Origin: Eutreptiella sp. 'Long Island Sound 2002'
Lineage: Eukaryota; Euglenozoa; Euglenophyceae; Eutreptiales; Eutreptiaceae
NCBI GenBank assembly: GCA_964036045.1
Contig: OZ038387.1
Span: 22,257,637 to 22,321,636 of the forward strand
Reading direction: 5' to 3'
Length of the DNA stretch: 64,000 bases
Shown here: positions 1 to 34,550 of the stretch, in pieces
How positions within the stretch are numbered: the stretch's first letter is position 1
Layout: every line of letters starts with the position of its first letter
Position numbers and translations under genes: made by a program
Notes under the pieces: model-generated
Databases searched by the model: none
Told to the model about the DNA's origin: nothing
The model's input: the letters and a program-made list of their open reading frames with translations, nothing else

Positions 1-251
1 GCCGTCAAGAGGGCGGACGCACAGCTGCAGCACCGCGTCCAAGTATACACACAGGAAGCACAACATACATCCCACAACCGCCGCACGTACTATAATCTCC
101 TCATCCACTACCAACACGCGCAACCTAGCGACTAGCCACACGCACGGGCCCGCGGCAACAGCCAGGCACCTACCGTAGCACCGCCCGGAGCACGCGCGCC
201 CCCCTCCCCTGTAGTGGCCCGATCGTCCTGCGAACGACACCTCTCCTCAGG

Positions 252-3813: not shown

Positions 3814-3848
3814 TCCCCCTGCCACATGCCCCGACAACCCAAATCTTT

Positions 3849-4750
3849 GTGCGACAGCTCCAGGCGCTCGTCACCCCCGGGACACAGGTCTCTGACGACC
3901 TCATTGAAGCGTGGATCTGGTGGTTCAACACCCACCAACCGGCCCAAGGGGGCGTGTGGGTCCCACACCTGGGCTGGGTACACACGCTCATAGCGCCACC
4001 GACGGACCCCAGGCCCACCCCCGCCACCGGAGGCCGGGAGCAGGCCGCCCCACCACCGAGACCCGACAACCTCCGTATCCCACCGCACGAGGGCCTGGAG
4101 GCATGGGAAAGCTAGACTGCCCGTAGCAGGGGGCACAACCTCACGAACCTGACGGCGCACTACCCGGAGACGACGCGCGCAGCACCCCCGCCGCGCGAAC
4201 GTGACCCCGGTACCATCGCCATGATCGTGTTTTGGAGAATGGCCACTACTACCAGGTGCGGATCATCCTGCACCCGCAGGACAACCATTGGAGCCTGGAG
4301 GCCGTCGACTCCATGCTCCGGGCGACCACGGGCCTGCCGGACAACCCTACCCCCCTGCTCCCAAACCAACCCCCGGACCCCCTGACGGCCATTGTGTCGG
4401 GGGCGGCAGGCACCTGGCACCCAGGCCACGCCCTCTACTGCCTCTGGCGGTGGGCGCGGCGGCGCTGGCCGCACACCAGGGCGTGGTCAGCGGCGTGGAG
4501 ATTGTACCTCGACGGCCGGCAGCAGATGGAGGCCATCCCGGAACCGACGGCGGAAACCCCCACTGAGCCCAACCTATGCCCCGTCTTCGCGATCCACCAG
4601 ATCCAGGCACTGGCGCTGGGTGGGCAGCTGCAGCCCGCCATCCGCACTGAGACGGAGGCCCGGGCGGCGCACGCGGCCCTGGTGCACGAAATCTTCAGTG
4701 CCGTCCGCAGCGCCCTTGTACGACGTGCGGGTAACCCCCCAGGGCCCTGA
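3849..4750 (+). pseudogene. Possible Ulp1/C48-like cysteine protease fragment, frameshifted
   Basis: Two frames make up this block. The first, 3849-4115, reads VSDDLIEAWIWWFNTH and later HLGWVHTLI. The second, roughly 4190-4750, has HPQDNHWSLEAVDSM. Ulp1-type (C48) proteases usually show a D-[DE]-x-I-x-x-[YW] entry segment, then HW with an Asp about 15 residues on, then Q and DC. The entry-like segment and the HW are visible; a catalytic Gln-Cys pair is not clearly present. C48 domains are known in some LINE and DNA transposons. The assignment is weak and rests on two short motifs. The break near 4116-4190 needs at least one frameshift. Confidence 0.25.
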
Positions 4751-6689
4751 CCTGCGACCAACCACAGGACCTGCAACGACGACGCACGGCCGCACGCGCG
4801 CGGCACGAGTCCCACAGCAGCCACGCGCAGGGAAAAAACGGCGCGGCGGACCCGGGACCGCCCCCTCCCACCAGAGGACCGGACGATGACCGACATGCCA
4901 GCGGCAGCAGGATCGGCCACGAACCACAACAACCCCGACCGGGCAGACCTCGCCAAACACGACCCCTCGTACAACCCAGCAACGCGCAGCCGCGCAACAT
5001 GCTACGGCACCACCCGTCGACCGGACACACCAGCGGGGACGGCGTCCACCTGCCCAGCACGCACAACGGACACCCAAGGAGTGGAGGCTAGCCTTGGCAG
5101 CCAACGGTGCCGGACACAAATACAACGCCAACGACCTCTTCCCACATCCCCCGGATGAGGGCCGCACTTCCCGGATCTCAGCGACCCGCCTGCAACCAGG
5201 AAAGGGGGCAGCGCCGCACCCGGGACCGCCATCCCACCTGACCCTCCTCTCCCACGTAACGGGTCCGGGAGGGGCCGGGCAAAGGGGCCCGCCAAACACG
5301 CGGAGCCCACGGCCGAACCGATGGCCGAGGGAGTGTTGTCGAACAGCGCACGCCACCGGATCCGGGCGCTTGCGCTGGGCGATTGACAGCAACCCGCCGT
5401 CTGCACTGAGGCGGAGACCCGGGCAGCACGCCCAGCCTTTGTGCACGCAAACTTCAGTAACATCCACAGCGCCCCAGTGCGACGCATGGGACGCCTCCCA
5501 AGGACCCTGAGCCGCGCCTGGCGACAGGTCCTACCGCGACGACCCGGTGGCACACAGCCACGCAACACACCCCAGCAACACCTGACGGTCCGACGAACCG
5601 ACGAGACGGACGTCAACATGCCCGACACATGCAACAGATGCCCGGAGAGTGGAGGCCAGCCTTCGCAACCCGTGGTGTCAAGCACGCACGGAAACCCCAC
5701 GACTTCCTCCTACAACCCCCCGGGCGAGGGCCACGCTTCTCGGACCCCGCGACCCACCTGCAGCAGGGAACGAAGCGGCGCCACACCCGGACCCGTCCTC
5801 CCGCCTCACCCTCCTCTCCCGCGAGCCGGATCCACAAGGGGCCGGGCAAAGGGCCCGACCAAATACGCGGAACCCGCGGCCGGGCCAATAACCACAAGAA
5901 CGTTAACCAACCACCGGCCAGGGTATTACCGTCCAGGGCGAGCATCCGGAGATAAGTGCACTGCAGGTGCCAGCGCGCACCTCCGCCGGGGAGTTGAGCG
6001 CCTGGGACGCGTAAGGTTACGACACGTATAACCTATGCGAATGGTACGAGGGGCACACCCCCCGCAGACACTTAACAGCGTACATGAGAGGGAGGGGGGC
6101 TGCAACACTACCCGGTACTCCTGTCCTCCACAACCCTACCCGGGGCATGCGGGGGGCCACAAGCTCACCGCACGGGGCCGCGCCGACCCCCCTGCCAACA
6201 GGCACGGGTGTGTTACGCCGAGCCCAACCCGCCACGTCGGACGGAGCGTCCCGACACCACAGCACAAGCCGAACCACCCTAACCATTCTAGCCACCACAC
6301 CTGGCGCCGTGACACAGACACGCCACCCGAATGACCCAAAACGCACGACACCAGAAGGCGCACGGCAGACAGACAGGCACGAGCACGAGCACAGCACCAC
6401 CGAGCTGGAGCAACGCGTTGGGGCTCCCATGGGGAGCACAGGGACACAACGAGGGGGACCGGCGGGGCCTTGCCACCGACAAAGGTGTACATATGAGTTG
6501 CACAAGCGAAACTGGAAGTACGGCTACGGAGCACCACGAAATACCGGATAATGGATTGTGCATGCAACACTGCCAGGGCGGGGCAGGGAGCAGGGCACCG
6601 ACAGGGGGAAAAAAAGTTTTACAGCGGTCCAACCGCTTGTCATGGCTTTTATCCCCCGCGGCGCGCGGGCGGCGCACAGTACAAACGTA
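4751..6689. repeat. GC-rich non-coding stretch with two degenerate ~560 bp tandem units
   Basis: Segments around 5080-5320 and 5644-5882 align by eye. Both run from a GTGGAGGC-type start through GAGGGCC and CACCTGACC/CTCACC to CCGGGCAAAGGG and a GCGGCCG-like end. The blocks at 4590-4725 and 5353-5480 also match each other, so the repetition includes the end of the preceding ORF. The spacing is about 560-760 bp. No convincing gene is seen; the frames present are short and without domains. Confidence 0.45.
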
Positions 6690-8210
6690 CCGTGCCGACC
6701 CCACACACCTGGCACCGACCAACATCGCAATAAGCGGCACACCTGCGCACAACAAATCCGACTGCGCGAACATCCGCTGCGACAACAAGGAACGAACGCC
6801 GAACAAGCCAACCAAGAGGCGACTAACACGACCACACACCGCAAGAACCACTACAGCGGACGCAACGTGACCGTGAACAGACCGCGCGCGCACCGACCAG
6901 CGCCAAGCTGGCCGGGCATGCATGGGCCGATGCGAGAGCGACGACCAACGAGCTAGCGACACCGTAGCAAGCCGCGCCCCCCGACCACCATGGCCACAAG
7001 CACAGAGGAATACTGCGACTCTACCGCTGCGGACGCGGCCCACGAACGTTCCCAAACTACACTACACACACTCGTACAAACCAAGACGCCACAAACCGAC
7101 GCAGACACAAACGTGCTGGCTAAACGGGCAGGGTTCGACGATAAGACTACCGGCAGCAGCGCAACGGAACCCGCACAAACACGGCCGACCATGAGATGGC
7201 CACGACAACCGCGCACCAACCACACCACAGCTGCAGCCACCACTTGACCGTAAACAGACCACACGCAAGCCGGGCAAAGCGGAACCAGCCAGGCGTACAC
7301 GGGTCGAAACGGAAACGGCGCCCAACAGGTTGGCAACACCGTGGTGCGCCACGCCTGCCGACGACCATGCCCACGAACACAGCAGAACACCACAACGCTG
7401 CCAATACAAACGCGACCAACCAACGGTAACAAACTACACAACACTACACTTGGACAGACCACGACGCCACTAACCAGCACCGACACGGACATGCCAGCTG
7501 CATAAACAACATGCGGCGGAACGACCACCAGCAGCAGCGCAATGGAACCCACGCAAACCAAGCCGACCATGAGGCGGCCAAGACGACCGCGAACCAACAA
7601 CACCGCAGCTGCAGCCGCCACTTGACCGTAAACAGACCACGCGCAAGCCGGCCAACACCAAACCAGCCAGGCGTGCACGGGTCGAAACGGGAACGGCGTC
7701 CAAAGGGTTGGTGACACAGTGGTGCGCCGCGCCCGCCGACAACCATGCCCACGAAGTCAGCAGAACACCATAACGCTGCCAATACAAACGCGACCAACCA
7801 ACGATAACAAACTACACAACACTACACTTGGACAAACCACGACGCCACTGACCAACACCGACACGGACATGCCAGCTGCGTAGACAAGATGCGGCGGAAC
7901 GACCACCGGCAGCAGCGCAACGGAACCCACGCAAACCAAGCCGACCATGAGGCGGCCAAGACGACCGCGAACCAACAACACCGCAGCTGCAGCCGCCACT
8001 TGACCGTAAACAGACCACACGCAAGCCGGCCAACACCAAACCAGCCAGGCATGCACGGGTCGAAACGGGAACGCCGTCCAAAGGGTTGGTGACACCGTGG
8101 TGCGCCGCGCCCGCTGACGACCATGCCCACGAAGAAAACTTGGCTCTACCATCACGCAACCGACCAACCTACATTACCAAACTACACCGCAACCGTACCA
8201 TACGACCGAC
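6690..8210. repeat. Tandem satellite, ~378 bp unit, about four copies
   Basis: Landmarks recur at a constant period. GACCGTAAACAGACCAC or its variants lie near 6866, 7248, 7625 and 8003, and CCGACCATGAG lies near 7188, 7566 and 7944. The spacing is 377-382 bp. The last two and a half units are nearly identical, while the first is the most diverged. Long hydrophobic frames on the - strand through this array are products of the repeat, not genes. The array sits upstream of the 3' end of the LINE-like element. Confidence 0.8.
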
Positions 8211-8693: not shown

Positions 8694-9612
8694 TAGCCCT
8701 GGCCAGCCTGCTGCACAGTAGCGCAGCAGCAGGACCGTAATCAGCAAAGAAAATTTGCTGTGGCCTCTGCACCATGAAACAAGCACAGGCACAGGGCATT
8801 ATGAAATCATTGTGGTATCTAAATGTACATGGTATGAAGTGATGATCATGCGCAAATAGCAACAAGTATGCAACAATTAATATATCTATGTATCCGTGAT
8901 GCGAACGCGCGCGCTTGTCCGGTTACACCATAACCGAACTTGTGAGCCAATTGAGTGAAAGCCATCAAATGATTGGTGAGCAGTCTCAAACCCGGAAAAT
9001 AAACCCATAGACCTCCAACCGTTCCAAATATGGAACTTGCGGCACGTAGAGACGGTTGATCACGAGTAACCAATTGACAAAGCTTCTTCCTAAGGCTTTT
9101 ACGCTTTCTATCGGGAATACTAACAACGCCACGTTCAAAGTCGGCTTCGGCCCCCTAAAATTCGACAACGTTTGAAGGCTCAAAAGAAGATTTTTCAGTG
9201 TGAACCAGAAAACCAGCCTCTTCCGACGTTGAGCAAACGACGGCCACGGAGGCACGGCATTCGGCATATGTGGATCCGAGGATCATGATATCATCCATGT
9301 AAACGAAGACCATTAGGCCATGCTCTCTCTAATGCCTAGAAAGGACGCGCATAAAAGAACAAATTATTTGAAGCGAGGCGTTAAACCCAAATGGCACTGA
9401 AAACGATAGAGAGAGCCATCAACTTCCACGCCTACATAGCGAGCAAAACTACTCGAAAGTAGGATGTGAAAGTAAGCATGCCACAAATCAACTTTTGCCG
9501 CATATATTCCTTTACGTAACATTGGAAAAACGATGCCCAAATGATCTAACTTGAAAGGCGAACAAGTAATGAACTTGTTTATGGGTCTCATGTTGGTAAT
9601 GAAACGGAGTTT
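8694..9612 (-). pseudogene. DIRS-like reverse transcriptase/RNase H, 3' part
   Basis: Reading leftwards from 9612, the protein begins with LRFITNMRPIN, followed by KVDLWHAYFHI (RT motif A) and, after a frame change near 9360, VYMDDIMIL, the YMDD catalytic site, at about 9280-9310. Downstream come SIPDRKRKSL and LRAASSIFGTVGGL, which match the connection between RT and RNase H in DIRS/Ngaro-type elements. Several frameshifts are present. The downstream tyrosine recombinase expected for DIRS elements is missing, because the sequence meets the LINE tail at 8693. The 5' part lies at 22152-23640, separated by the inserted TIR element. Assignment to DIRS rather than another RT class rests on these motifs. 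Confidence 0.65.
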
Positions 9613-9633
9613 CTTAGCCCACGCAAACTGCAC
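9613..9633 (+). repeat. Left terminal inverted repeat
   Basis: The end reads CTTAGCCCACGCAAACTGCA plus C, preceded by the 4 bp direct repeat GTTT at 9609-9612. It matches the reverse complement of 22126-22146 with one mismatch (C/G at the tenth base). A second short match lies about 25 bp further in. Confidence 0.85.
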
Positions 9634-10706
9634 CCTGTTTTGCGCGCCGAACGCGCAGAAAAGGACTGGTTCGCAACAGGGCAAAAAAACTAATTTTTTT
9701 GAATGTTTGATGAACGTGATTTTGGGCGTAGTGAAATAAATTGCTTTTTTAGTGTTGTGCAACTCCGTGTTGCTCAATGTGACGTTTTTTACATTTCTCT
9801 GGCGTTCTGAGTGCGCGAGGCCTCATGCACTCAAGATATTCAAAGTAGAGTTTATTAAGAAACCTAAAAACCCGTAAGGACTGGCGTTTGCGGAAATACG
9901 CAGCTCCCACACGGTATTAAAACTAAGATTGTGTTGACCAAGGAGCATCAGAAGTGTATGACTGTCCGACTTCCCATGTTAGGGGAAACACATATACTGT
10001 AAAGTGAAAATGAAATACAAATTTCGGCATCCGGAGTGCGCGAGGCCTCGCGCACTCAGGTCACGTTATGTATTAATTTCCGGAATGGATATGACGCGTA
10101 CAATGGCAGGTACAATACCAGACAGACGAACACATTTGGCTTTTCCGGTGTACGTGTGTGTAGACAACGTGTTGGTCAGATATAACACGGTATAGAACAT
10201 TGTCCCACGGAAACAATCAGTGCGTGAGGCCTCGCGCACTTGAACCACGCAAGAAGATGAAAAAGCAGGCAGGTCAGGCTACGCCGGTATTTACATTCCC
10301 TTTCCCGGCTACCACCTGTGACAGTCGATTATACATCGGTAACCTTCGTCATATTTTTCAGGGGATCAGGGGAATGATTTGCTTTTTTTCCAACAGCCAG
10401 TCAATGGCAGACATGTCCTGTTCTAATAGCGACCGTAGCCTTCGCTGCCCGATAGATAGGGCTTTTTTTTCCAACTGGGTTTAAAGACGCAAACAGAACA
10501 GGAAATTGTGGTTGCGCAAACGGTTTTCGGTTACTGGGAACGGAGCGCACGCAGACACCAAATACAAATTGCGGTGGCAGCACGCGCACCAGAAATGACG
10601 ACAGGAAAAGGCCAGATGTTTTCGAACACACTTTTTTTAAAGATCGCTGTGCAAAACGATAATTGAAATATGTGCGCAAAGTTAATTCAACAGAGAAGGA
10701 CGCAAA
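9634..10706. other. Left non-coding part of TIR element with three palindromes
   Basis: No gene is supported here. Three copies of the element's palindrome lie at 9809-9832, 10034-10057 and 10219-10240. The second is a perfect 24 bp palindrome containing GTGCGCGAGGCCTCGCGCAC; the others have one or two mismatches. T-runs occur at 10380-10390, 10465-10475 and 10630. The stretch probably holds the promoter of gene 1, but no clear TATA box was found. Confidence 0.7.
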
Positions 10707-12697
10707 ATGCCACTTCGAGCCAGAAAATCCGTAACGCATCGAATGATTGCAGAAGTAAGCAAAGGAGCAGCAGCACTACGAGAGGCAAGCGCGGCAGAAC
10801 GAGCATACCAAACAGCAGACGACTTGTGCAAAGGACTGAAACGAAGCGACCTGGCGGCGCAACTGGTGTTAACATTTGCACAGCGAGTCAGGTTCCACAA
10901 AAGAACGCGCCACAGTTTATCAGCAGCTAAGAGGCAAGAGGACAAGCGCTGGGTGCGCATTATGCGACAGGAGGCCTGGAACCTGTACCTGTTGATGCGT
11001 CAACGGGCAGTACCAAACAGGAAAAAACCGGGGGAAACAACAGGGTACCTAACTTAAACCGAAAGACGAACAAAAGTACGACTTGGGCAAGCAGAGGCTG
11101 CCGCAGATACAGTGGACGAACAGGCAGCAGCAGCACTGAAAGCAACATGGTCACTGTTGCTTTCATCGTGTTGCGTGCTGTGGATCGACACCTGGTACCG
11201 GGCACAATACACCCAGACAAAAGTGACCGGTCGCAAAACTGTACTGCAATGGCAGTACTTCAACTGAATTAGAGGCCCACGTGTTGGGCAGGACATCCAG
11301 CCATTGAGGATCTGGCAGCACGGATAACGACAGTTGCAAGGGCTCTGCAACAGCGTGAACGGAGAATCCCCCAGACTTTGCCTGACATGGGGTATGCGGA
11401 TGGGTGTGTACCAGACACGAGAAACTTGAGAGCACCGTTGAATGCGAGGAGGGATGCAGGGACTGTGCAGGCACCGGTGTGGCGCCCGTTTGCCCTGTCC
11501 ACAGAAATGATAACTGGTGGTATTGGTCTGTTAAACTTGTTACACTTTGCAAAGGACACAGCACAACAGACAAACAGAGTTCTACCGCTGTTGGTTGACG
11601 AAAACATACACTACAGGATACTAAAGTTGTTGTACGGTGCCAAGAACCAACGATGGAACATGCCTGCGTACCTGCGTTATGTGCCTGTGATTTACGGTGT
11701 TTGGCATGCCTACAAGTTTGTTGTTACTCATACTTTTCGGGTGTTCTGGCCTATTCTAACCTACCTACCGAAAGGTCTGCTACACCCTGGATCAACCATA
11801 CTATCATGCCCCGAACTGATAGTTACGGAAAAAACTATTGCTGCGCTGATGCTTGCCACACCCAGAATACTACGCCCGTATCGTCGCAAGGCACAAGCTG
11901 CAACTGCAATCAGTGGTTGTGACACTGCGCATGCCAAAAGGGCAGCAGTGGAAATCGCAGTCTTGCATTTGTTGTCGGAATGGTGCCCATTGTTGTTGTA
12001 CTTGTTTCACCTGGTACAGGAATGCAACTGGTCGGGGGAAAACAACGGTACAGGGTAACGAGCTCAGGAGGTGTTGCAGTTGAGTTTGTGTCTGTTGCGG
12101 AGGCTCTGTCGAGGACGGTGTGACACCGTACTGAAGTATGAACGCACAATCATGTGCACATTGTTGTACAACAGCAAGTGGCACCAGGACCTGCCCGGTC
12201 AGACACACTCAAAGGAGTTTGGAGCAGGGATGTTGAGCAGGCTGGTGCGGGACAAGGCGAAAAACACCGCTTCTGTTACTGTTGAGGAGGTGGAAAACCA
12301 TTACTTGTGGCTAAAAGTTGGTCCTGGTGGCAAACGCGTGGGTGTGCAAAAAGTTCCCCAGAACCTGGTACACAGGATGCGACAATGCCTGACAAGATTT
12401 TTGGCGACAGACCAGATTTGCATGGCCCATGTGGAATGGGAGTCTGACCGATTCAGCACCGTTGCAACTTCCTGGCCGCGGAGGTTACCGAGATTTCCAC
12501 CCTCAGCTACACAACCCTCTGGTTACGACCACTACCGGCTACTTGGTCACAGCGTACTGGATGCCCTGATTGACGAGAAAACAAATCCCACCAACCAACT
12601 GAAACGGAAACTGGATGCTGTTGTGGGGCGGAGAACAGATATGGATGCCGACAGACAGGAAGCAGCAACACGCAACGTGCGGCAACGCTTGCGGTAA
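10707..12697 (+). pseudogene. TIR-element gene 1: conserved unknown protein, broken
   Basis: ATG at 10707 begins a basic segment (MPLRARKSVTHRMIAEVSK). The coding continues with LLSSCCVLWIDTWYRAQYTQ, LLVDENIHYRILKLLYG, VPVIYGVWHAYKFVVTHTFR, LFHLVQECNW, YERTIMCTLLYN, WESDRFSTVATSW and a basic end. The full product would be about 660 residues. Lesions visible are TAA at 11055, TGA at 11265 followed by a frameshift before 11273, and TAA at 12056, after which the same frame continues. I see no intron and no palindrome inside the coding part. I do not recognise a catalytic domain. I recall similar proteins being common in dinoflagellate genomes, but cannot give a function. As the first gene of a TIR element it is a candidate transposase, by position only. 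Its last third is repeated at 17606-18080. Confidence 0.6.
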
Positions 12698-12946
12698 CTG
12701 ACACCCGCAGTGCGCGAGGCCTCACGCACTAAACGTTACGAAAAACAGGTCTGTAATGCGATGTGAGTGCGCGAGGCCTCCCGCACTGAGTAGGTCGCTA
12801 AGTCCGAGAGAATGAGTCACAACAAAGACGGTTGTGGAACAGATTTGCAAAACCGACCTGCAAAATACCGTGTCGACTGATTTCGGAGTTCAAATGACCG
12901 TCTTTCATATCATGCCATTTGCCCTTTTCAGGTAGTTTTTGGCATC
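12698..12946. other. Gap between gene 1 and gene 2 with two palindromes
   Basis: This non-coding gap holds palindrome copies at 12709-12730 and 12765-12787, starting 12 bp after the gene 1 stop. Their position suits a role in 3'-end formation or as a spacer. No other feature is visible. Confidence 0.6.
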
Positions 12947-13709
12947 ATGAGTCAACCAGGGTCGCCAGAACGTCCAGCACCAGACGTAGAAGCCATGGAG
13001 TTGTCACCAGGGACCGACCAAGGGGACTCGCCGAAGAAAGGACGCGGGAGGAAGGAAACCAATACCGGCGATGAAGCTCACAGTCGACGTGCAACAGTGG
13101 CTGCGGAAGGAGAATGGTAAAGCGGTGAAGGTAAACATTACTGATTTGCAATTCGACAAGACCAAGGAGCGAGAACAGATCTGATCCATCAACTATGACG
13201 ACGTTGCCAAGAAGGTGACGGGATATCAAGCAATGCCACCACCTGGACCCTTGCGCGTAACGGCATGGGAGGGTAGTGGTATGACTCGCTTCGCGTTCGA
13301 TCAAAGACATTTCTTCTCTTTGCTGCAGTACATGATTCGCTTTGCAGATGGCTCGCTTTACGTTCTGAATGGTCAACATGGCACAGAAACATGTAGAAAG
13401 ATTCAGGAACTGCGGCTCGCAAAAGGCAAGGAATTGGAGGAGTGGCAGGAGTTTTGCTACGTTGACATTCTCAAGTACGAAACACCTTGAAGGATCCAGG
13501 ACAAGGTTGCAGGATTGCAACAAGCTGGCAGCCAGTCTGTGACGTGGATTCCGCTGTCCGAGGCGCTGGACAACATATTGTTGTACATTGAGGACCAGAA
13601 GCGGGAAAAAGAGCCACAAGACGTCGAACGGTTCAAGATTGCTGTTGTCCAGGCTGCCGTCAACTCTGCGTTTCTTGCACGTGAGGCTTTGGAGGAAGCA
13701 GAACACACA

Positions 13710-13782
13710 GTATGTATTCGTGTATCGCACGGTTATAGTGCGTGAGGCCTCGCGCACTCCATGACACCGTTTTCCCTCGCAG
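13710..13782 (+). other. Intron 1 of gene 2 copy A with palindrome
   Basis: The intron begins GTATGT after ...CACACA and ends CCTCGCAG before GACTCG; it is 73 bp. Splicing keeps the frame (EHT to DSTFKNW). The palindrome (AGTGCGTGAGGCCTCGCGCA plus CT) fills 13737-13758, the middle third. Confidence 0.8.
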
Positions 13783-13937
13783 GACTCGACATTCAAGAAC
13801 TGGAGGGACATCTTCCCCCTGGCGTATTACTGCGGCCGTGAGGCGGTTACTGGTATGAAGAACCTCGAGAATAAGAGCAAGAAAGAGGACGTTACAAGGA
13901 ATGCCTTCAAGAAGCTGGAGGGGCTGCATCTACCAAG

Positions 13938-14700
13938 GTAGGTAGGTAGGTAGGTGCACTCGGTCGTGGAGAGGCGCCCCATGGTTCCCCCTGGCGTCGC
14001 CCCTGTGACGGACAGGAAGAGGTTCCGCGCGTGAAGAGGGGATGTGGCTTACTTCCCGCTAGACCTGACTGGTGGCCCCCAACAAAGCGGCCCCGGGCAA
14101 CACCGGGTCGGCTGATCGCCGCCAGCGTGACTGCTTGTCATGCCGGGAGGGTGGGCCCCCGTGCTTGCGCACGTCCCCTTCGGGTTCACCGGACTTCCTG
14201 GTGTATCCCGTTCCTAAGGCATGCATGCATGTTCTTGGTACTGGGGTTCCGAGGTGCTTGGGTGTCGCACGCTCCGCCTCCAGTCCCAAAGCAGCGCAGG
14301 CCTTAGGATGCAGCCTTACCCCCGGTCTCCGGATCTCGTTTGGCCGGGTCACCTGCATGGCACGGGCTGCCTCAGTGCCCGGGCTATGGACACTGGGTTT
14401 CCTACTGTTGCGTGGCGCTTGTGTTTGGGTCTGGGTTGTGGTTGGGTTCGGGTTTCGGCTACGCCCCACCACTCTTGCCTGGGGTGTTGGGGTGTGTGTG
14501 CGCTTGTGTGTGTGCTCCGCTTGCACCCAGCCAGTCCTGGCACGGGTGCGCGGTGTGGGTGTGTGTATTTGGGCTCGGGTTTCGGCTGCGCCCCGCCATT
14601 CCTGGCTCGGGTGTTGGGCTGTGTGCGTGCTCCGCTTGCACCCAGCCACTCCTGGCACGGGTGCGCGGTGTGGGTGTGTGTGTTTAGGCTCGGGTTTCGG
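13938..14700 (-). mobile_element. 5'-truncated LINE fragment in gene 2 exon 2, 126 bp target duplication
   Basis: The insert begins GTAGGTAGGTAGGTAGG next to the exon, the reverse complement of a (CCTA)n LINE tail, so the element points leftwards. The exon segment 13812-13937 is repeated at 14701-14826, 126 bp each, with a few substitutions. Copy B has the segment once. No coding region is visible in the 763 bp. Near the right end are tandem ~115-127 bp units marked by GGGTTTCGGCT at about 14450, 14577 and 14692. Confidence 0.75.
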
Positions 14701-14975
14701 CTTCTCCCTGGTGTATTACTGCGGCCGTGAGGCAGTTACTGGTATGAAGAACCTCTAGAATATGTGCAAGAAAGAGGACGTTACAAGGAATGCCTTCAGG
14801 AAGCTGGAGGGGCTGCATCTACCAAGCTTATTGCAGAACGTCTGTGCGCACATGAACCTGAAGGACTCGACCTTACGCACCACCCAGAACTATATTGACG
14901 CGCTGATTACGGAACAATGGGTTATTTTCCATCTTGACCATCCGGACAATAAGCCGTATGTCAACCAGACCGCAG

Positions 14976-15046
14976 GTATGCGTCAGGGTCGCAGCTTCAG
15001 TGCGCGAGGGCTCGCGCACTCAACCACCTTTTTCACATCTGTACAG
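14976..15046 (+). other. Intron 2 of gene 2 copy A with palindrome
   Basis: The 71 bp intron runs from GTATGC to TGTACAG; splicing reads NQTA to AADAKI. The palindrome with centre AGGGCT instead of AGGCCT is at 14999-15020. Confidence 0.8.
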
Positions 15047-15744
15047 CTGCCGATGCGAAGATCCGACCAGAAGTCGCAGCGCTGGGCACAACGCAACTGA
15101 AGATTGGGCTGGGAAATTGGGGTTATTGGGAGGACGCAAAAAGTACGAGGTACCGGTCGCCGTGGCCAAAGTGGAAGACGTTGACCAGTGTACCTCTGTC
15201 GCGAACTGGGGACAAGGGCGCACTTCCATTACCGCAGACGCTGGCCGTGCGGAAACATCTGCAAAGGAAGACTGAGGCACCAGCATCGGCACCAACACAG
15301 ACACAGCTGGGTACTGGCGACGTGATCAATGTCTCCAAGCAGGACGAGCAAGGGAGCAAATTTGCTTTGACGGCATGCCGTATTGAGAATATCGAAGAGA
15401 CACCACCAGCCCGTTTCCGGGATTTGCAGTACCCGTTGTGGGTGATCAACGCTGACCTTTTCGCTGAAAATGACTTTGCAGGATTTGTTCCGAAGTGGCT
15501 GTTCGATGTGATGATGCTGGGGAAGGACGTCATGTTCTATGGCGAGGCTGATGTTGTGCACCGTATTGGCCGCGACATGCAGAGGCTGTGGCGTATGGGG
15601 AAGGACAACGATCCAACCACAGTGCCTTTCTACCATGCCCAGTTGCCGGTATACTCTTGGTTATCGGGTCCCGTGACCAGCAACATGTATCAGTTTGAGG
15701 AGCACTGTATATGGATCAGAACAACGAGTCGCTGGGATAAGCAG

Positions 15745-15841
15745 GTATATCTGCTTCTTTCGAAAGTCTCGATGCCGTTGTGTGCGCGAGGCCTCGCGCA
15801 CTGCTGCCTCCGTTGTTCGTCTTTATTCATCACATTTACAG
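15745..15841 (+). other. Intron 3 of gene 2 copy A with palindrome
   Basis: The 97 bp intron runs from GTATAT to TTTACAG; splicing joins RWDKQ to LPNYV. The palindrome is at 15781-15802 with a perfect 20 bp core. Confidence 0.8.
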
Positions 15842-15959
15842 CTGCCGAACTATGTGACGTATTCCGAAGGACATTTCGAAGAGATGCGGAACAAGAACCT
15901 CGGTGGTTTCATGCCTTTGATTCACTTGCTGTGGTACATGGACAAATATCTTTTGGACA

Positions 15960-16435
15960 TAAGGATGCAGGTTCGAATTCGCACAAATTCGCTCGAATTC
16001 GAATTCGCCCCGAATTCGCACGAATTCCTGGACCACTCCGAACTCGAATTCGCAACTTTGAATTCGAATCCTCCCTGATTCGCTTGATTGAATCCATAGG
16101 CACCTAAAATTTACCTTCTAGGTTGCAATTCACCTGTTTACATATGGGTATGCCACTACCCAGTACCATATCGCATAAAAGATTTCCCAAAAGCTTCCGT
16201 AACCTTGCAATTTTTGTTGTTTGTTGTTGCTTGCATTTACCATGCTGAAACGATTCGACGATTTGACAAAAATAAAGCAAATCAAAACCAAGAATTCCAA
16301 AGTTCCTTGCTTCTCTCAAATGCCTTTTGGAAAAGAAGCAGCAACGAAGCATGCAAGATCACCAATCCACACACAAACCATCACATGTGAACCACTTGTT
16401 GCCCTTATTGGGCCTTCATTCATTGAATTCTTGAA
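15960..16435. mobile_element. 476 bp AT-rich insertion in gene 2 exon 4, 7 bp TSD
   Basis: Copy B reads straight through this site. In A the exon word TTGGACA occurs at 15953-15959 and again at 16436-16442, flanking the insert. The first 120 bp are dense in GAATTCG words; the rest is AT-rich and without coding. No terminal inverted repeats were found. It may be a SINE or MITE-like element; the GGTTCGAATTC near the left end resembles a tRNA B box, but no A box lies at the right distance upstream. Confidence 0.65.
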
Positions 16436-17232
16436 TTGGACAGTGGGCATGCTGATGCAGTTGTTGTGGATGATACCCCTGCCATGGCCGCAAAGATTGC
16501 GATGTCGGACGAGTCGGGGAGGACTAAAGTGGCGTTTCTGGCTGTGTCAGCGATCAAGCAAAAGGACCTTGCGAATGCCGTTGGAGGTGTTCTGCAGCAT
16601 GCGATCATCATGCGGTACATGTTGGAGGCCGATCAGACGGAGCAGGAAGCAACAGCTGCAACTTGGGAAACTCAAGAAGAGTGGCTTCTGCGTGGCATTG
16701 CACTGTGGGCTTTGGACAGCAACCGAGGGTATGAAGGGCACCAGAAGGTGCATGCTGCGGAAACCGTCCAGGAAGAGGTCGTGACTGAGGCCCCCGCTGA
16801 CGACACCGAGCCTGTTGCGCCTGCACCTACCTTCCCAAGCCAAGCCAAGATGAAGAAGACTGCCAAAGTTGTACCAACCCAGGGTAGGGCAGCCGGAAAA
16901 GGAACCCCCTCGAGTAGCAAGAAGCAGGGGAAAGCAAAAGAGAAGGAATCAGACAAGCCTGGAGAATCAGACGACGACGATGCCAACGAGGATGAAGAGG
17001 AACAGGATCCAGAGCAAGTACTGGAGACCCAGCCCGAAGCTCGAATCTGGTAAGGACCTGCCGAGGAAGAAAGCGAGGACTGCTGCGAGTGCTAGGGCAG
17101 AGTTCAACCCGCCCTCGCGTTCTGGTGCCCAGCCGTCTCGTGGTACCGTTGCCTCCCCAAGTGGGACAAGTGCGGTAGCAAGAAACCGTGGGTTCCAGGT
17201 TGGCTAAGGTTGCTGGACCGAAGAAGAAGTAA

Positions 17233-17605
17233 GTCACCATTAACCCAAGTGTTTCGCCTCTTTTTGCAGCCATGTGTCCGCGAGGCCTCGCGCACTCGCC
17301 TTCGACGCGAATGCAATTTTATGCCCTTACGGGCTTGTACATTTTTGCCGAGCTTTTATTTCAGTGTTCGTATGTTGTGCACTTCGTGTCCTGTTTTTGT
17401 TGTCTTCCGTGCACAATTGTTTCCGTGACTTTGAGTGCACGAGGCCTCACGCACTCAGGGACATAAAAAAGCAATTTATTTCTCAGGACAAACATAGGTG
17501 CAACTGGAGACCCGCGGAATGTCATTTTTGAAAATGAGCTCATGAAACGGCACGCCCTAGTTGGTTTGCGAAATACAAAAAGGAAAAGATTGGTAAAACA
17601 CACCC
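17233..17605. other. Downstream region of gene 2 copy A with two palindromes
   Basis: No gene. After the TAA at 17230 comes GTAAGT...TTTTTGCAG (a possible short intron overlapping the stop), then palindromes at 17275-17296 and 17433-17456 about 160 bp apart. Copy B has the same arrangement. Confidence 0.6.
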
Positions 17606-18080
17606 GTCGAGAACCGTGTGACACCGTACTGAAGTATGAACGCACAATCATGTGCACATTGTTGTACAACAGCAGGTGGCACCAGGACCTGCACGGTCAG
17701 ACACACTCAGAGGAGTTTGGAGAAGGGATGTTGAGCAAGCTGGTGTGGGACAAGGCAAAAAACACCGGTTCTGTTACTGTTGAGGAGGGGGAAAACCACT
17801 TTTTGTTGCTAAACGTTGGTCCTGGTGGCAAACGTGTGGGTGTGCAAAACGTTCCTCAGGCCCTGGTACACAGGATGCGACCACGCCTGACAACACTTTT
17901 GGCAACAGACCAGATTTGCATGGCCTATGTGGAATGGGAGTCTGACCGAGTCAGCACCGTTGCAACTTCGTGGCCGCGGAGGTTACCGAGATTTCCACCC
18001 TCAGCTACAGAACCCTTTGGTTACGACCACTACCGGCTACTTAGTCACAGCGTACTGGATGCCCTCATTGACCAGAAAAC
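17606..18080 (+). pseudogene. Gene 1 C-terminal fragment at start of copy B
   Basis: This repeats the last ~160 codons of gene 1 (CDTVLKYERTIMCTLLYN to HSVLDALIDQKTS) with about 90% similarity by eye. It has no gene 1 N-terminus because the duplication starts inside the gene. At 18080 it runs directly into gene 2 sequence equivalent to 13233, so about 640 bp found in copy A are deleted. The fused frame ends at TGA about 20 codons later. Confidence 0.75.
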
Positions 18081-18563
18081 AAGCACTGCCACCACCTGGA
18101 CCGTTGCGCGTAACGGCATGGGACGATGGTTGGTATGACTCGCTTCGCGTTCGATCGAAGACATTTCTTCTATTTGCTGCGGTACACGATTTGCTTTGCA
18201 GATGGCTCGCTTTACGTTCTGAAGGGTCAAAATGGCACAGAAACATGTAGAAAGATTCAGGAACTGCGGCTCGCAGAAGGCAAAGAATTGGAGGAGTGGC
18301 GAGAGTTTTACTACGTTGACATTCTCAAGTACGAAACGCCTTGGAGGATCCGGGCCAAGGTTGCAGGATTGCAACAAGCTGGCAGCCAGTCTGTGACGTG
18401 GATTCCACTGTCTGAGGCGCTGGACAACATGTTGTTGTACATTGAGGACCAGAAGCGGGAAAAAGAGCCACAAGATTTCGAACGGTTCAAGATTGCTGTT
18501 GTCCAGGCTGCCGTCAACTCTGCGTTTCTTGCACCCGAGGCCTTGGAGGAAGCAGGACACACA

Positions 18564-18636
18564 GTATGTATTTGTGTATCGCACAGTTATAGTGCGTGAG
18601 GCCTCGCGCACTCCATGACACTGTTTTCCCTCGCAG
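18564..18636 (+). other. Intron 1 of gene 2 copy B with palindrome
   Basis: 73 bp, GTATGT to TCGCAG, same length as in copy A; palindrome at 18591-18612. Confidence 0.8.
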
Positions 18637-18940
18637 GACTCGACATTCAAGAACTGGAGGGACATCTTCTCCCTGGCGTATTACTGCGGCCGTGAGGCGG
18701 TTAATGGTATGAAGAACCTCTACAATAAGTGCAAGAAAGAGGACGTTACAAGGAATGCCTTCAGGAAGCTGGAGGGGCTGCATCTACCAAGCTTATTGCA
18801 GAAAGTCTGTGCGCACATGAACCTGAAGGACTCGACCTTACGCACCACCCAGAACTAAATTGACGCGCTGATTACGGAACAACGGAATTTTCTCCATCTT
18901 GACCATCCGGACAATAAGCAGTATGTCAACCAGACCGCAG

Positions 18941-19011
18941 GTATGCGTCAGTGTTGCAGCTTCAATGTGCGAGGGCTCGCGCACTCAACCACCTTTTTCA
19001 CATCTGTACAG
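18941..19011 (+). other. Intron 2 of gene 2 copy B with palindrome
   Basis: 71 bp, GTATGC to TGTACAG; palindrome at about 18964-18985, slightly degraded on its left arm and with centre AGGGCT as in copy A. Confidence 0.8.
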
Positions 19012-19182
19012 CTGCCGATGCAAAGATCTGACCAGAAGTCGCAGCGCTGGACGCGACGCAACTGAAGATTAGGCTGGGAAATTGGGGTTATTGGGGGGAC
19101 GCAAAAAGTACGAGGTACCGGCCGCCGTGGCCAAAGTGGAAGACGTTGACCAGTGCACCTCTGTGGCAGACTGGAAACAAGG

Positions 19183-20001
19183 TTTGAGGTTTGAGGTTTG
19201 ATTTTGCGGGTACTAGACGCCTTTCGGCCCCGGGGGGCCACCTGGTCGGGCCAGGTGATATCCTCCCCACCAGGTCCTAGTGGGGGGCCCTCCAAGACGC
19301 ACCTCCTGCCTGGTGGCGCAGTCCCCCAGGTTCACAGGGCTCGGAGCCCCGTCCTTCCCCGGCTTCCCCGTTTCGCCACTCCCCGGTCAGTGCATCAATT
19401 CGCAGCCGTGGCTGCGGGCACTTACCCACCGCCTCGCCCCCCTAATGCGTGGTCACCCGGGGCGCCGGCGCCGCCGGGCCCGTGCTACTGGCTTGTCGCC
19501 AGTGGGACCCCCTTGGGCTGGCGCGGAGGCTGCCTAGCCTAGAAGTTGGGGCGTGGCGCTGTGCGCCACTACTGCCTTGGCGGGTGCAGTGCCCCGTCTG
19601 TGTGTGCGCGGCGCTCGCGGCCGGTTCAGGGGGTTCGGGCCGGTACCTGGCGTCGTGTTTCTCTCGTTTCCCCCTTCCCGCCCTACGTGTTCCGCGCTGC
19701 GTGTGGCGGGCCGTCCCGTCCGGGTGTCCCTTACCCTCGCTCGCTGGTACGCCATTCCACGCGGTCTGTGCGTTCCGCGCGCTCGGTCCGGTTGCCCTTC
19801 CGGTAGTCCCCAAGTGTCCCTTTCGTGTGTGTGCGCTCGCGCTCTCGCGGTGTCCGCTCCCCCCCCCCCCTGGATGGTGTGGCGTGCGCATCTCGCGTGG
19901 TCCCGGCACTGGGCGCTGGTAGGGCCGTTCCACGTGGTCCGTGCCCCTCCGCGTGTCCTGCCCCGGTCCCTTGCTCCGTCTGGCGTGCTTGGGGGGGGGC
20001 G
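19183..20001 (-). mobile_element. 819 bp GC-rich retro-insertion in gene 2 copy B
   Basis: Copy A reads through this site uninterrupted. In B the exon words GACTGGAAACAAGG (19169-19182) and GACTGGGAAAAAGG (from 20002) flank the insert as an imperfect 14 bp target duplication. The insert starts with TTTGAGG repeated, the reverse complement of a heptanucleotide 3' tail, so it points leftwards. The body is GC-rich, with poly-C at 19859-19870 and poly-G at 19991-19999, and has no recognisable domain. A truncated LINE or SINE is likely. Confidence 0.6.
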
Positions 20002-20542
20002 GACTGGGAAAAAGGGCACACCTCCATTACCGCAGACGCTGGCCGTGCGGAAACAACTGCAAAGGAAGACTGAGGCACCAGCATCAGCACCGACACAGAC
20101 ACAGCTTAGTACTGGCGACGTGATCATCGTCTCCAAGCAGGACGAGCAAGGGAGCAAATTTGCTTTGACGGCATGCCTTATTGAGGATATCGAAGAGACA
20201 CCACCAGCCCGTTTCCGGGATTTGCAGTACCCGTTGTGGGTGATCAACGCTGACCTTTTCGTTGAATATGACTCTGCAGGAGTTGTTTGGAAGTGGCTGT
20301 TCCATGTGATGATGCTGGGGAAGGACGTCATTTTCTATGGCGAGGCTGATGTTGTGCACCATATTGGCCGCGACATGCAGAGGCTGTGGCGTATGGAGAA
20401 GGACAAGGATCGAACCACAGTGCCTTTCTACCATGCCCGGTTGCTGGTATACTCTTGGTTATTCAGTCCCGTGACCAGCAACATGTATCAGTTTGACGAG
20501 CACTGTATGTGGATCGGACCAACGAGTCGCTGGGATAAGCAG

Positions 20543-20639
20543 GTATATCTGCTTCTTTCGGCAGTTTCGATGCCGTTGTGTGCGCAAGGCCTCGCGCACT
20601 GCTGCCTCCGTTATTCGTCTCCATTCATCACATTTATAG
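20543..20639 (+). other. Intron 3 of gene 2 copy B with palindrome
   Basis: 97 bp, GTATAT to TTTATAG; palindrome at 20579-20600 with one mismatch (GCAAGG for GCGAGG). Confidence 0.8.
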
Positions 20640-21580
20640 TTGCCGAACTATGTGACGTATTCCGCTCGACATTTCGAAGAGATGCAGAACAAGAACCTCG
20701 GTGGTTTCATGCCTCTGATTCGCGTGCTGTGGTACCTCGACAAATATCTTTTGGACAGTGGGCATACTGATGCAGTTGTTGTGGATGACACCCCTGCCAT
20801 GGCCGCAAAGATTGCGATGTCGGACGAGTTGGGGAGGACTAAAGTGGCGTTTCTGGCTCTGTCAGCGATCAAGCAAAAGGACCTTGCGAATGCCGTTGGA
20901 GGTGTTCTGCAGCATGCGATCATCATGCGGTACATGTTGGAGGCTGATCAGACGGAGCAGGGGGCAACAGCTGCAACTTGGGATACTCAAGAAGAGTGGC
21001 TTCTGCGTGGCATTCGACTGTTGGTTTCGGACAGCAACCGAGGGTATGAAGGGCACCAGAAGGTGCATGCTGCAGAAGCCGTCCAGGAAAGGTCGTGACT
21101 GAGGCCCCCGCTGACGACACTGAGCCTGTTGCGCCTGCACCTACCTTGCCAAGCCAAGCCAAGATGATGAAGACTGCCAAAGTTGTACCAACTCAGGGTA
21201 CTGCAGCCGGAAAAGGAACCCCCTCGAGTAGCAAGAAGCAGGGGAAAGGAAAAGAGAAGGAATCGGACAAGCCCGGAGAATCAGACGACGACGATGCCAA
21301 CGAGGATGAAGAGGAACAGAATCCGGAGCAAGTAGTGGAGACCCAGCCGAAGCGCAAGCAGGCACCAGCCGCTCACTTTGATGCAAGTCCTGAATCTGGT
21401 AAGGACCACCCGAAGGGGAAAGCGATAACTGCTGCGAGTGCTAGTGCAGAGTTTAAGCCGCCCTCGCGTTCTGGTGCCCAGCTGTCTCGTGGTACCGTTG
21501 CCTTGCCACTTGGACAAGTGCAATGGCAAGAAACCGTGGGTTCCAGGTTGGCTAAGGTTGCTGGACCGAAGAAGAAGTAA

Positions 21581-22125
21581 GTCACCATTAACCCAAGTGT
21601 TTCGCCTCTTTTTGCAGCCATGTGTCCGCGAGGCCTCGCGCACTCGCCTTCGACGCGAATGCAATTCTACGCCCTTACGGGCTTGTACATTTTTGCCGAG
21701 CCTTTATTTCAGTGTTTGTACGTTGTGCACTTCGTGTCCTGTTTTTGTTTTCTTCCGTGCACAATTGTTTCTGTGACCTTGAGTGCGCGAGGCCTCACGC
21801 ACTCAGGAACATAAAAAAGCAATTTATTTCGCAGGACAAACATAGGTGCAACTGGAGACCCGCAGAATGTCATTTTTGAAAATGGGCTCATGAAACAGCA
21901 CGCCCTAGTTCGTTTGCGAAATACAAAAAAGGCATGATTGGTAAAACACACCCTTCAAATCAGACAAAATAATAGTTTGTTTTAATAACCAAAAACTGGA
22001 AAAAAGCAGCAAAGTGGGTAAAATTGTATTTTTTTCGGTGGTATCCGGGTCATATGTGCTGCAAATGTCGGAAAGGAATAGTTTTTCGGGCTGTCGTTTT
22101 TTGGGTCCTTCTCTTCCAAAAGGGC
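21581..22125. other. Right non-coding part of TIR element with two palindromes
   Basis: Palindromes lie at 21623-21644 and 21781-21804. After the end of copy B at 21953, the last 170 bp are unique and AT-rich, with T-runs near 22030 and 22085. No gene. Confidence 0.65.
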
Positions 22126-22146
22126 GTGCAGTTTGCCTGGGCTAAG
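22126..22146 (-). repeat. Right terminal inverted repeat
   Basis: Read on the - strand, this is CTTAGCCCAGGCAAACTGCA plus C, the partner of 9613-9633. One extra C at 22147 lies between it and the GTTT duplication at 22148-22151. Confidence 0.85.
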
Positions 22147-22151
22147 CGTTT

Positions 22152-23953: not shown

Positions 23954-25092
23954 TTACTTCCTCGACACTTGAGCACGCCACTCCAAAAAATGCTTACACT
24001 GATGCAACTCAGCTGGCAAAAGTTGTTCACGACATGCAGTCCGAGCATACAACTGAGCCAAGTGAGTATCAACCTGCTGAATCATCAGAAGCATATCACT
24101 TGCAACTTGTGTGGGAGCTTGTGTGGATGATGGTGTAGGAACGGGAGGAGGTGGGGGTTGAGTGGCTTGTTGGGCAACCGGTGGTGTCACATCTTGCACA
24201 TCTGCTGGGGTAGCTTGTTGTGCATGTATCTTGTTCCGAAAATCATGGGGGTTCTTGAGTGCTACACGATTACGTGGATTTAAGTCATACTGCAAACCCT
24301 CAAACCAACCATCCGCCTTGAGAACATTGTTCCAGAGAAGTGTCATTTCGGGAAAATCTACCGAGTCACCTTTGGGAAAGCGAGGAGCAAGGATAGAAAA
24401 CAATGCTTTCTCGGAATCATTGCACTTGAGGCGTGTGACGAATTGCTTCTTAGAATGCAAATATTCTGTGGCACTCACCTTGTTTTTTGCTTTCTTACCA
24501 TTGGCGTCTGCCTTCTCCTCTGCCGAAAGAGTGTTGTGAGGACATTTTTGGAGGAGATTAACCCCTATGTCACCATCATCCTCATCCACAATGGCCTCCA
24601 TGTTAGCCGGATGAACACCTTCCAATGCATCACGCGCGAGTGTGTATTCGTCATATTCCGTCACATTCTCTGCAGCAACCTCAAGCAATGCATTGGACTC
24701 AGAACCGCCCAAGTCAGCGTTCAGAACAATACCACAATGCACACCCTTAGTAGGTTTTAATTTGGCCAAATGAATATCCATTACATGACAATCCATGGGG
24801 CTCAAAAGAGGATCCCTCAGCAAATGTGGGCAAATGCGGTCAAAGCGAATCTCATTGATGGACCGGTCTTTATATAGCAAACAAGCGTGAATTATAACCA
24901 TGCAAAAACATTCCAAGCAATGCTTCTCCTAGTGCTACACCAACCTTGCCGAAAGTACAGCTTGCTTCTGAGCACAATGCAAGATTTCATCCAGTTGTGA
25001 ACCCACGTAAAAGCAATCAACAGTGCATCCAGCACGAACATGACCAAGCATGTTTTTAACCTCACGGCATAAATCACCACTAGCCGTCGCAC
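23954..25092 (-). pseudogene. Unrecognised gene, C-terminal part, Pro-rich linker
   Basis: A 320-codon frame runs from 24916 to 23954 (with MDCHVMDIHLAKLKP, GIVLNADLGG and DFPEMTLLWNNVL), then a Gln/Pro/Thr-rich linker (QPPPPPVPTPSS), then a helical end. Coding similarity seems to continue upstream in other frames to 25092 (VKNMLGHVRAGC, CFYVGSQLDEIL), so the annotated part is the C-terminal portion of something longer. The coding stops exactly where the LTR begins at 25093, which suggests the LTR interrupted it. The protein family is not recognised. The Leu/Asp-rich N-terminal block might belong to a transposon, but no catalytic motif was found. Confidence 0.4.
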
Positions 25093-26076
25093 TGTTGAAT
25101 TCCCACTTTACATCTCATTCCTCTATTGGAATAGTCTTTGTATCCTCTGGTTGCACTTGCTTTAGTGTTTGTTCCTGCTCCATTTCAGGTACTCAAAGAT
25201 TTCAGTGGAAAATAAAACCAGAGCAAGACTCCAAGACGAGCAGAGCTGGGATCAATAAAACAATGAGGAACTTGATGGGGCTGTACAACGAACAGACAAA
25301 CAATGGGTGATGTTGGGCCTTGTGTTCGCTCGTATGCATGCATGTATGCATCAGGACCACTCAGGACTTCAGTCTGCACTAGGTCACAGTGGCCAGTGAC
25401 TTCAATTCAGTGCAAAAATGGTTTATCTCAGAAATCAAGCTTCCTGCAGTGATAGTCAAACAGACGAAAGAAAAATGGTTTAAAAATGATACAAAATGAG
25501 AGAAAATCACTTCAAATGTCTTCCTGGATTTTTCTGTAGCCCAGGAAACAATTCATTCGTGACTGCAGAACTCAGTAGGAACTACCCTGATGACCTCAGA
25601 ACTCAGTAGGTTCTGCCCATAGTGGAAGCGGCGCGCTCACGGGGCAAAAATGGCCAAAAAAATGAAATAGTCTTATGACCACTATATAGATGCGGGTTTT
25701 TATGCTGATTCTGAAAATCATATCATTTTTCTGTGAAACGACCATATATTGGAGAAAAATGCAGATTACTGAACAGCTCAGCCTCAATGAGACTAGCCAA
25801 AAAAAATAGATAAAGCAAAGGCCAGCACCCATGTTGTGCTCTAATACAAATAGTGTTCAAAGAAGAAACAATGGAATAACAAACAATAACTCATGGAATA
25901 TAATACAATAGATAAACCCTCTCTTGAATTAAAGTTAGGCCACTCAGTGTCTTTCACCCATATTGGAAGTGATCAAGCTCCATGGATAAAATTTCACCCA
26001 ATGTCCCAACCAAACTCCAATAAAGAATAATATCATTGTCCCAGATGAAACCAATGTTTTGAGAAATTGTTGTCCA
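25093..26076 (-). repeat. Left (3') LTR of Ty3-1
   Basis: It starts TGTTGAATTCC and ends TTGTCCA in + orientation and aligns throughout with 34551-35533, with scattered substitutions. CTATATAG near 25684 could be the promoter TATA box on the - strand. 984 bp. Confidence 0.85.
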
Positions 26077-27210
26077 ATCGTACTAAAAGTTGGGAGTAGA
26101 ACCAACCGTAAATGACCAAATGTAGACCAAGAGGAATCCTTCAAACGGTCTCCCGATACACGAATGTCGTCCTCATACGCTAACGTAGTCGTGAACAATG
26201 TTCCTGGTCGCTGTAGTCAGAAATCAAACTCTGATCCAGACGCTTGACCCAATAAATGTCAGCAAATCCAATCAATCTGGGCAGATGAACACAGTAATTG
26301 AGCCATAAATTCAGTGAAGTAGGCACCTTACATATCAGGCCAGTACCTCAGCTGTCAGGTGGTCGTAGGTGTCGCTAGGGGCCTGCACTTGCAGCCATGA
26401 AACTCCAGCATATGAACTTGAGTTCCAGATCCCACATCATAAATGTACCAGGATGCCCCATTCCAGCCACATGAATCAGCCTGTCATAACACAAATGGCA
26501 GGGCATGAGGACTCAGCTCCTCGCTGAACGTGTACAACGGCGCGTCCAGACTTCTAACGCGTTGCTTTACGTGTTTGCCTCAACATGTAGACCACTGGTT
26601 CAAGTCAAGTTGGTGCCCTGGGAAAAACTCCCTCCGAAACCCCAAACCTCAACTTGTAGTTACTTAAACTTGGCTTCAAGTTGACCATAGGTGCTGCGAA
26701 GTAAAACCAGGACCAAGTAATATTCAAAGTACTTTCCAACCATGAACTAACCAACATTTTTGGGAACCTCAATAACCCCAGGTTCCTTGATACTTGGCTC
26801 CCTCCAACTCAACCCCCTCCAGAACTTGTCGTAACTCCAGAACTTGCTGTTATGTCAGTCATATCCACCTTTTACAACTGTTCAATATTTGACCTTGAAA
26901 CTTCTTCCAATTTCTTTCTTTCTGGTTCCCAAAATTGTCCTGCAGACCTTGCTGGCGGCGCGAGCGTCTCAGAGCGCAGAAGTCCGGCAGTCCCTCCGAA
27001 ATTCCCACGAGGAATAATGGAGTCCAAATAAGGTGTGGTCTTTTCCATGCCTTAAACTGAACTTGTCCGGATATATTCTGAACTTCAATAATTGTTCTGC
27101 AGAATGAAGCGAAGTTCTGCAGGTTTTCTCCTTGGTCCGCCAGTGGACGCATAAGCAGGATGAGAACTGACTTCAAGGTACTCCTTCCTCCTCAGGCTCT
27201 TGGTAATAAT
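26077..27210. other. Between LTR and pol of Ty3-1, no gene seen
   Basis: This 1.1 kb between the end of pol and the 3' LTR shows only short frames. Words built on AACTTG/CAAGTT recur between 26590 and 27070. A purine run (GAGGAGGAAGGAG on the - strand) lies near 27185, just after the pol stop, but is not adjacent to an LTR. Confidence 0.5.
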
Positions 27211-32274: not shown

Positions 32275-32277
32275 TCA
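32275..32277 (-). other. Gag/protease border stop, UGA-CUA
   Basis: The stop between gag linker and protease reads TGA CTA, followed by the open protease frame. UGA-CUA is a known readthrough context in plant and animal RNA viruses. The other two Ty3 elements have a stop at the same border. Confidence 0.5.
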
Positions 32278-34549: not shown

Positions 34550-34550
34550 C

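Follow-up and report, generated by a model that had tools for sequence, protein, structure and literature searches.

A probable two-gene DNA transposon, rearranged, with terminal inverted repeats and dispersed palindromes in Eutreptiella

The element and its two genes

A 64,000-nucleotide stretch of the genome of Eutreptiella sp. 'Long Island Sound 2002' (GenBank assembly GCA_964036045.1, contig OZ038387.1, positions 22,257,637 to 22,321,636 of the forward strand), referred to here as the window, contains an element bounded by terminal inverted repeats (TIRs) that carries two gene families, gene 1 and gene 2, and a dispersed palindrome. A preliminary description of this DNA had proposed 21-bp inverted ends and a GTTT direct repeat at both flanks, and both are present (Table 1; positions throughout are those of the window). 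The end sequence CTTAGCCCANGCAAACTGCAC was found at the two boundaries in opposite orientations; at up to 3 mismatches, these are its sole 2 matches in the whole window, and none occurred in 100 shuffles. Ungapped extension of the inverted ends reaches 30 nt at 87% identity, and the element termini read CTTAGCCC. With the 4-bp target-site duplication (TSD), the right end is one base longer than the left (CTAAGC versus CTTAG). Exact TIR scans gave no match in genome_contigs and none in viral_contigs.

The flanks rejoin as had been proposed. When the empty site is rebuilt, they form a single open minus-strand frame, ...VSKVEPSGSIKLRFITNMRPINKF...; across the join the translation is ...FMVSKVEPSGSIKLRFITNMRPINKFITCSPFKLDHLG.... 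The joined frame, which the preliminary description had labeled a DIRS RT gene, matched no Pfam family. All 27 PDB sequences listed for it are reverse transcriptases (RTs), but with a best E value of only 0.65; we weakly favor reading the interrupted frame as an RT gene.

The span of 12.5 kb, previously taken as the size of the element, is instead that of a rearranged copy: an element of about 6.8 kb in its native form that has grown through one internal duplication and three inserts nested within it. Along these 12.5 kb lie gene 1 and gene 2, followed by a partial second set made up of the end of gene 1 and gene 2. Self-comparison aligns the first set (unit I) with the second (unit II) at 91-94% identity, pairing 12108-12584 with 17606-18082, 13216-13937 with 18069-18791, 14701-15217 with 18666-19182, 15201-15959 with 19999-20757, and 16436-17608 with 20751-21956. 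Removing unit II and the inserts of unit I leaves 6,819 bp, the unit I cuts being 13938-14826 (the insert plus its duplicated flank) and 15960-16435. In six pieces of gene 2 exons, the 95 differences between the units fall almost evenly on codon positions 1, 2, and 3 (29, 35, and 31); thus, no coding constraint is visible in the drift of this copy after it duplicated internally.

The two gene families of the preliminary description are borne out by 207 and 173 related proteins, respectively, encoded on many contigs. A 261-amino-acid piece of gene 1 used as the query retrieved the 207 proteins at an E value of ≤1e-3; the best 120 share 65-89% identity with it at a query coverage of 35-100%. A profile search that scored just the 7,996 candidates with the most shared words gave 208 proteins, of which the best 120 were listed. 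Some relatives retain open gene 1 reading frames (P0243, 653 amino acids; P0244, 665 amino acids), and two divergent ones, P0260 and P0262, are about 45% identical (46% over 455 positions for P0262) and keep the core D-E-N-I-H-Y ... Y-G-x-W-H-A-Y-K. Columns that are invariant in a seven-row alignment comprise, among others, L-S-K-E, D, N, H-Y, and Y ... H-A-Y, which together might represent a DDE-type core. Because gene 1 shows no intron, has open full-length frames in relatives, and keeps this core at about 45% identity, we infer that it is a candidate transposase gene.

Gene 2 is represented by 173 proteins found at an E value of ≤1e-3 with exon 1 as the query, the best 120 of which were listed. 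The three predicted introns start with GTATGT, GTATGC, and GTATAT, and each ends with AG. Among the best-conserved columns of exon 1 (35 rows) is the box Y-x-L-N-G-Q-x-x-T-x-T-C-R, which recalls the G-x-R-R / D-G-Q-H-R box typical of ParB-like proteins. A methyltransferase-like reading of the C-terminal half, made by eye, found no match in Pfam, NCBIfam, or PHROGs and was dropped.

The best 120 relatives of gene 1 and of gene 2 come from 98 and 97 contigs distinct by size, respectively, with 42 in common. All listed rows but one derive from 'ena' contigs of 0.13-6.5 Mb; the sole exception is P0128, from a 5,581-base JGI contig. Several clusters of relatives stand for 37-77 member sequences, which suggests that the family may have spread recently, although each such row names one contig. 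In addition, the tail of the gene 1 relative P0260 resembles the end of gene 2, with 25% identity over 150 positions and an E value of 2e-11 in a single comparison. This one protein suggests that the two genes also occur together in a second subfamily, beyond their own family.

A palindrome in predicted introns and spacers

The element also contains repeated copies of a palindrome, a feature absent from the preliminary description. Its 20-base consensus, GTGCGCGAGGCCTCGCGCAC, has 15 copies in the window at up to 3 mismatches, all 15 inside the element, and no match in 100 shuffles. Two copies are perfect matches, ten have one mismatch, two have two, and one has three. An exact 22-bp palindrome scan of viral_contigs found none, and a literature search with the 12-base core returned one unrelated paper.

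Of the ten palindromes in the native element, the 5′ leader contains three, the spacer separating the genes two, each of the three predicted introns one, and the stretch downstream of gene 2 two. Non-coding DNA makes up 32% of the element and accommodates all ten (chance of about 1e-5), and each of the six non-coding intervals holds at least one (chance of about 0.01 given that all are non-coding). The script behind these counts placed gene bounds off by one base and the last unit II intron off by three, which leaves the counts unaffected. Moreover, in all three predicted introns, the palindrome lies within 1.5 nt of the intron center, with 27 and 24, 23 and 26, and 36 and 39 nt on either side in introns 1 to 3.

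Among the 120 listed gene 2 relatives, 76 continue into intron 1, and 75 extend as far as the palindrome, whose translation is SARGLAHS. This octapeptide is unchanged in 39 of the 75 proteins and differs at one residue in 22, at two in 7, and at three or more in 7, so that at most 2 of 8 residues have changed in 68. Across the intron (73 proteins), mean column conservation is 0.90 in the palindrome versus 0.74 in the other columns (permutation P = 0.0003), or versus 0.76 when the two 5′ splice-site codons are counted (P = 0.005), and the figures are the same when rows are placed by their first ten residues alone. In a second alignment (35 proteins), conservation is 0.92 in six palindrome columns, compared with 0.77 elsewhere in the intron and 0.85 in exon 1. 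P0151, P0185, and P0223 likewise contain a translation of the palindrome, at intron 2, as do P0067 and P0070 (following gene 1) and P0149 (preceding gene 2); a few further rows match by chance within gene 1.

Coordinates and surroundings

Table 1. Features of the element (window coordinates)
Feature	Position	Strand	Basis
GTTT target-site duplication, left	9609..9612		read from sequence
Left terminal inverted repeat, 21 bp	9613..9633	+	sequence match
5′ leader stretch with three palindromes (9811, 10036, 10220)	9811..10239	+	pattern search
Gene 1, no intron seen; broken here by stop codons and frame shifts	10707..12697	+	open reading frame (ORF) reading, relatives' proteins
Two palindromes in the spacer separating the genes	12710..12786	+	pattern search
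Gene 2, unit I: four predicted exons, lysine-rich C terminus; broken by stops and two nested inserts	12947..17232	+	ORF reading, relatives, self-comparison
Gene 2 intron 1 (predicted; 73 nt), with near-central palindrome at 13738	13710..13782	+	prediction
GC-rich insert nested in unit I, with a 126-nt duplication at its flanks	13938..14700		self-comparison
Gene 2 intron 2 (predicted; 71 nt), with near-central palindrome at 15000	14976..15046	+	prediction
Gene 2 intron 3 (predicted; 97 nt), with near-central palindrome at 15782	15745..15841	+	prediction
Nested AT-rich insert in unit I, TTGGACA on both flanks (by eye)	15960..16435		self-comparison and reading
Two palindromes downstream of gene 2 in unit I	17276..17454	+	pattern search
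Unit II, duplicating 12108-17605 (gene 2 and the end of gene 1) within the element, without counterpart of 12585-13215	17606..21956	+	self-comparison
Five palindromes in unit II	18592, 18965, 20580, 21624, 21783	+	pattern search
Nested GC-rich insert in unit II	19183..19998		self-comparison
Right terminal inverted repeat, 21 bp	22126..22146	-	sequence match
GTTT target-site duplication, right	22148..22151		read from sequence

TTTGAGG repeats stand at the start of the GC-rich insert of unit II, which may have arisen by retroposition. Elsewhere in the window, a Gypsy-like long terminal repeat (LTR) retrotransposon occupies 25090-35529 on the minus strand, with 983-bp direct repeats at 94.9% identity; its RT and RNase H matches are above the cut-off, and those to integrase, chromodomain, and protease are below it. 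Two more Gypsy-like pieces were recognized by reading on the plus strand, at 40000-47013 (RT match above the cut-off, integrase match below) and 49123-53687, and 43882-44312 is 73% identical to 53186-53617. A 205-bp direct repeat at 94% identity (36498-36702 and 38825-39029, about 2.3 kb apart) possibly marks the ends of a small non-autonomous LTR element. A tandem-like array lies at 6789-8134, with offsets of about 377 and 755 bp and 76-83% identity. The window is GC rich (mostly 60-70%) at 1-8000 and 53600-64000, with long open frames in several frames; six ORFs scanned from these flanks had no Pfam match at an E value of ≤0.01.

Nature of the element

We file the element as a TIR DNA transposon with its superfamily unassigned; it was compared with Sola, the nearest candidate, by TSD, TIRs, and size. 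The explanation that we prefer, and hold to be somewhat probable, is that such transposons form a family with many copies, of which the locus contains one that is decayed and rearranged; the native form would be about 6.8 kb long, with two co-oriented genes, in which gene 1 would encode the transposase and the palindromes would be protein sites. Under this model, the gene 1 product would act as the transposase. The palindromes would be DNA sites for a dimeric protein encoded by the element. The simplest candidate is the product of gene 2, and its binding would cover or label the DNA of the element; such marking could serve end assembly, regulation of expression, or resistance to silencing. The sites would be confined to introns and spacers because coding DNA cannot easily accommodate them.

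Several results weigh against this explanation. The TIR and TSD are known from one copy only, the three gene 2 introns are predictions, the placement tests were devised after the pattern had been seen, and conservation of the palindrome was measured on translated proteins open through intron 1 rather than on DNA. As the preliminary description had it, no known transposase is recognizable inside the element, and neither gene significantly matches a DNA-binding family. Gene 1, in which a DDE/D transposase was sought, has no significant match in Pfam, NCBIfam, PHROGs, or PDB sequence profiles, and its AlphaFold model has a mean predicted local distance difference test score (pLDDT) of 34. Likewise, gene 2 obtained no significant match in Pfam, nor, with exon 1 and the C-terminal half as queries, in NCBIfam or PHROGs; its exon 1 had none in PADLOC or PDB sequence profiles. 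The gene 2 model has a mean pLDDT of 37, and none of its 136 Foldseek rows reached an E value of ≤0.001. Both scores are too low for the models to be informative, probably because the alignments hold few, similar sequences. The likeness of gene 2 to ParB, noticed by eye, obtained an hhalign probability of 0.2% against five ParB proteins in a comparison of low power, since the query Neff was 1.6; Pfam gave no ParB row for any of 12 gene 2 members. Across searches only weak rows appeared, namely, PCB_OB (E values of 0.007-0.026), GajB (0.018), and others at ≥0.03, those from Pfam lying below their cut-offs. PDB sequence profiles gave unrelated rows for gene 1 and gene 2 exon 1 (best E value of 0.09), tblastn against phages gave nothing in one search and a single row at an E value of 6 in another, and Rfam gave no matches.

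Polinton/Maverick elements encode polymerase B, a retroviral-type integrase, and capsid proteins and have a 6-bp TSD. An integrated virus or Polinton-like element, as the preliminary description had suggested, would account for several genes between inverted ends. Yet the element has two genes only, neither with a significant match to a virus or polymerase family in Pfam or PHROGs, its TSD is 4 bp, and none of the 17 and 29 pattern matches from protein scans of viral_contigs was confirmed; we regard this origin as most improbable. TSD length and ends likewise argue against three known groups. The Kyakuja, Dileera, and Zisupton (KDZ) elements of algae and fungi resemble ours in being large and carrying accessory genes (PMC12477816, PMC12730594) but are described with TSDs of 8 bp (Zisupton, Dileera) or 7 bp (Kyakuja) (PMC12730594), compared with 4 bp in this copy. 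Ginger1 shares the 4-bp duplication; however, it is described (PMC2836005) as targeting CCGG/CCGT, starting with TGTNR, and having a Gypsy-like integrase between TIRs 40-270 bp long, whereas here the target is GTTT, the ends are CTTAG, the TIR is 21 bp, and no integrase match was found. CACTA/EnSpm elements, with CACTA/G ends and a 3-bp TSD as given in PMC10741241, differ in both respects.

Sola is the most likely candidate if the element belongs to a known superfamily with a 4-bp TSD; gene 1 would then be a diverged Sola transposase gene and gene 2 an accessory gene. We consider this possible, though doubtful. In its favor, Sola elements are described as having a 4-bp TSD, TIRs from 11 bp, and sizes of mostly 2-9 kb (PMC10741241), a range that includes our native size, and 21-bp imperfect TIRs with 4-bp AT-rich TSDs are described for Sola2 (PMC3627910). 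A giant Sola1 element of Ectocarpus, Sola1-1_Ec32, is reported to carry an accessory gene that is ParB-like and methyltransferase-like (PMC12477816); for gene 2, neither a methyltransferase match nor, in a comparison of low power, a ParB match was obtained here. Dispersed palindromes go unmentioned in the main text of that paper, where the string "palindrom" occurs 0 times (PMC12477816). Alternatively, both genes could be cargo of a non-autonomous element mobilized in trans by a transposase encoded elsewhere. This agrees with the lack of a transposase match for either gene and with a report of giant Ectocarpus families whose genes have no transposase homology (PMC12477816). We find it unlikely, given a native size of just about 6.8 kb, the open full-length gene 1 frames, and the pairing of both genes suggested by P0260.

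A separate alternative concerns the palindromes, which could act in RNA as intron hairpins that draw splice sites together or control splicing. Their central position in the predicted introns would fit such a role, and the minimum-energy folds of all three introns contain the palindrome hairpin. Yet fold z-scores are weak (-1.59, -1.23, and -0.40 for introns 1 to 3) and 7 of the 10 palindromes lie outside introns. The 15 copies carry 17 changes from the perfect palindrome, 11 of them CpG transitions; by hand count, pairing is lost in 10, which a DNA site would tolerate, a G-U pair results in 5, and the other 2 sit at the center, although some are common to both duplicate units and are thus not independent. 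On these grounds, we think an RNA role rather improbable and tentatively favor a DNA site bound by a dimer.

A bolder version of the preferred explanation would make the element a new superfamily of eukaryotic DNA transposons with its own multi-site marking, in which the gene 2 protein, sitting on the ten palindromes much as ParB sits on parS, would form a nucleoprotein coat that synapses the ends or blocks silencing. We judge this quite unlikely. The resemblance to ParB-parS is one of analogy, namely, repeated sites beside the gene for a possible DNA-binding protein, and homology of gene 2 to ParB is unsupported in a low-power comparison. Among the titles and openings of abstracts listed by literature searches, no description of the element appeared; the family is possibly an undescribed one.

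If the palindromes are bound by a protein that the element itself encodes, a eukaryotic transposon would here be marking itself from end to end by way of sites in introns and spacers, and it would offer a clear test case for how transposons join their ends or evade silencing. If gene 1 is a transposase gene without known relatives, a superfamily would be added. Even if the element proves to be a relative of Sola, a palindrome in every non-coding interval would be an unusual and easily tested pattern.

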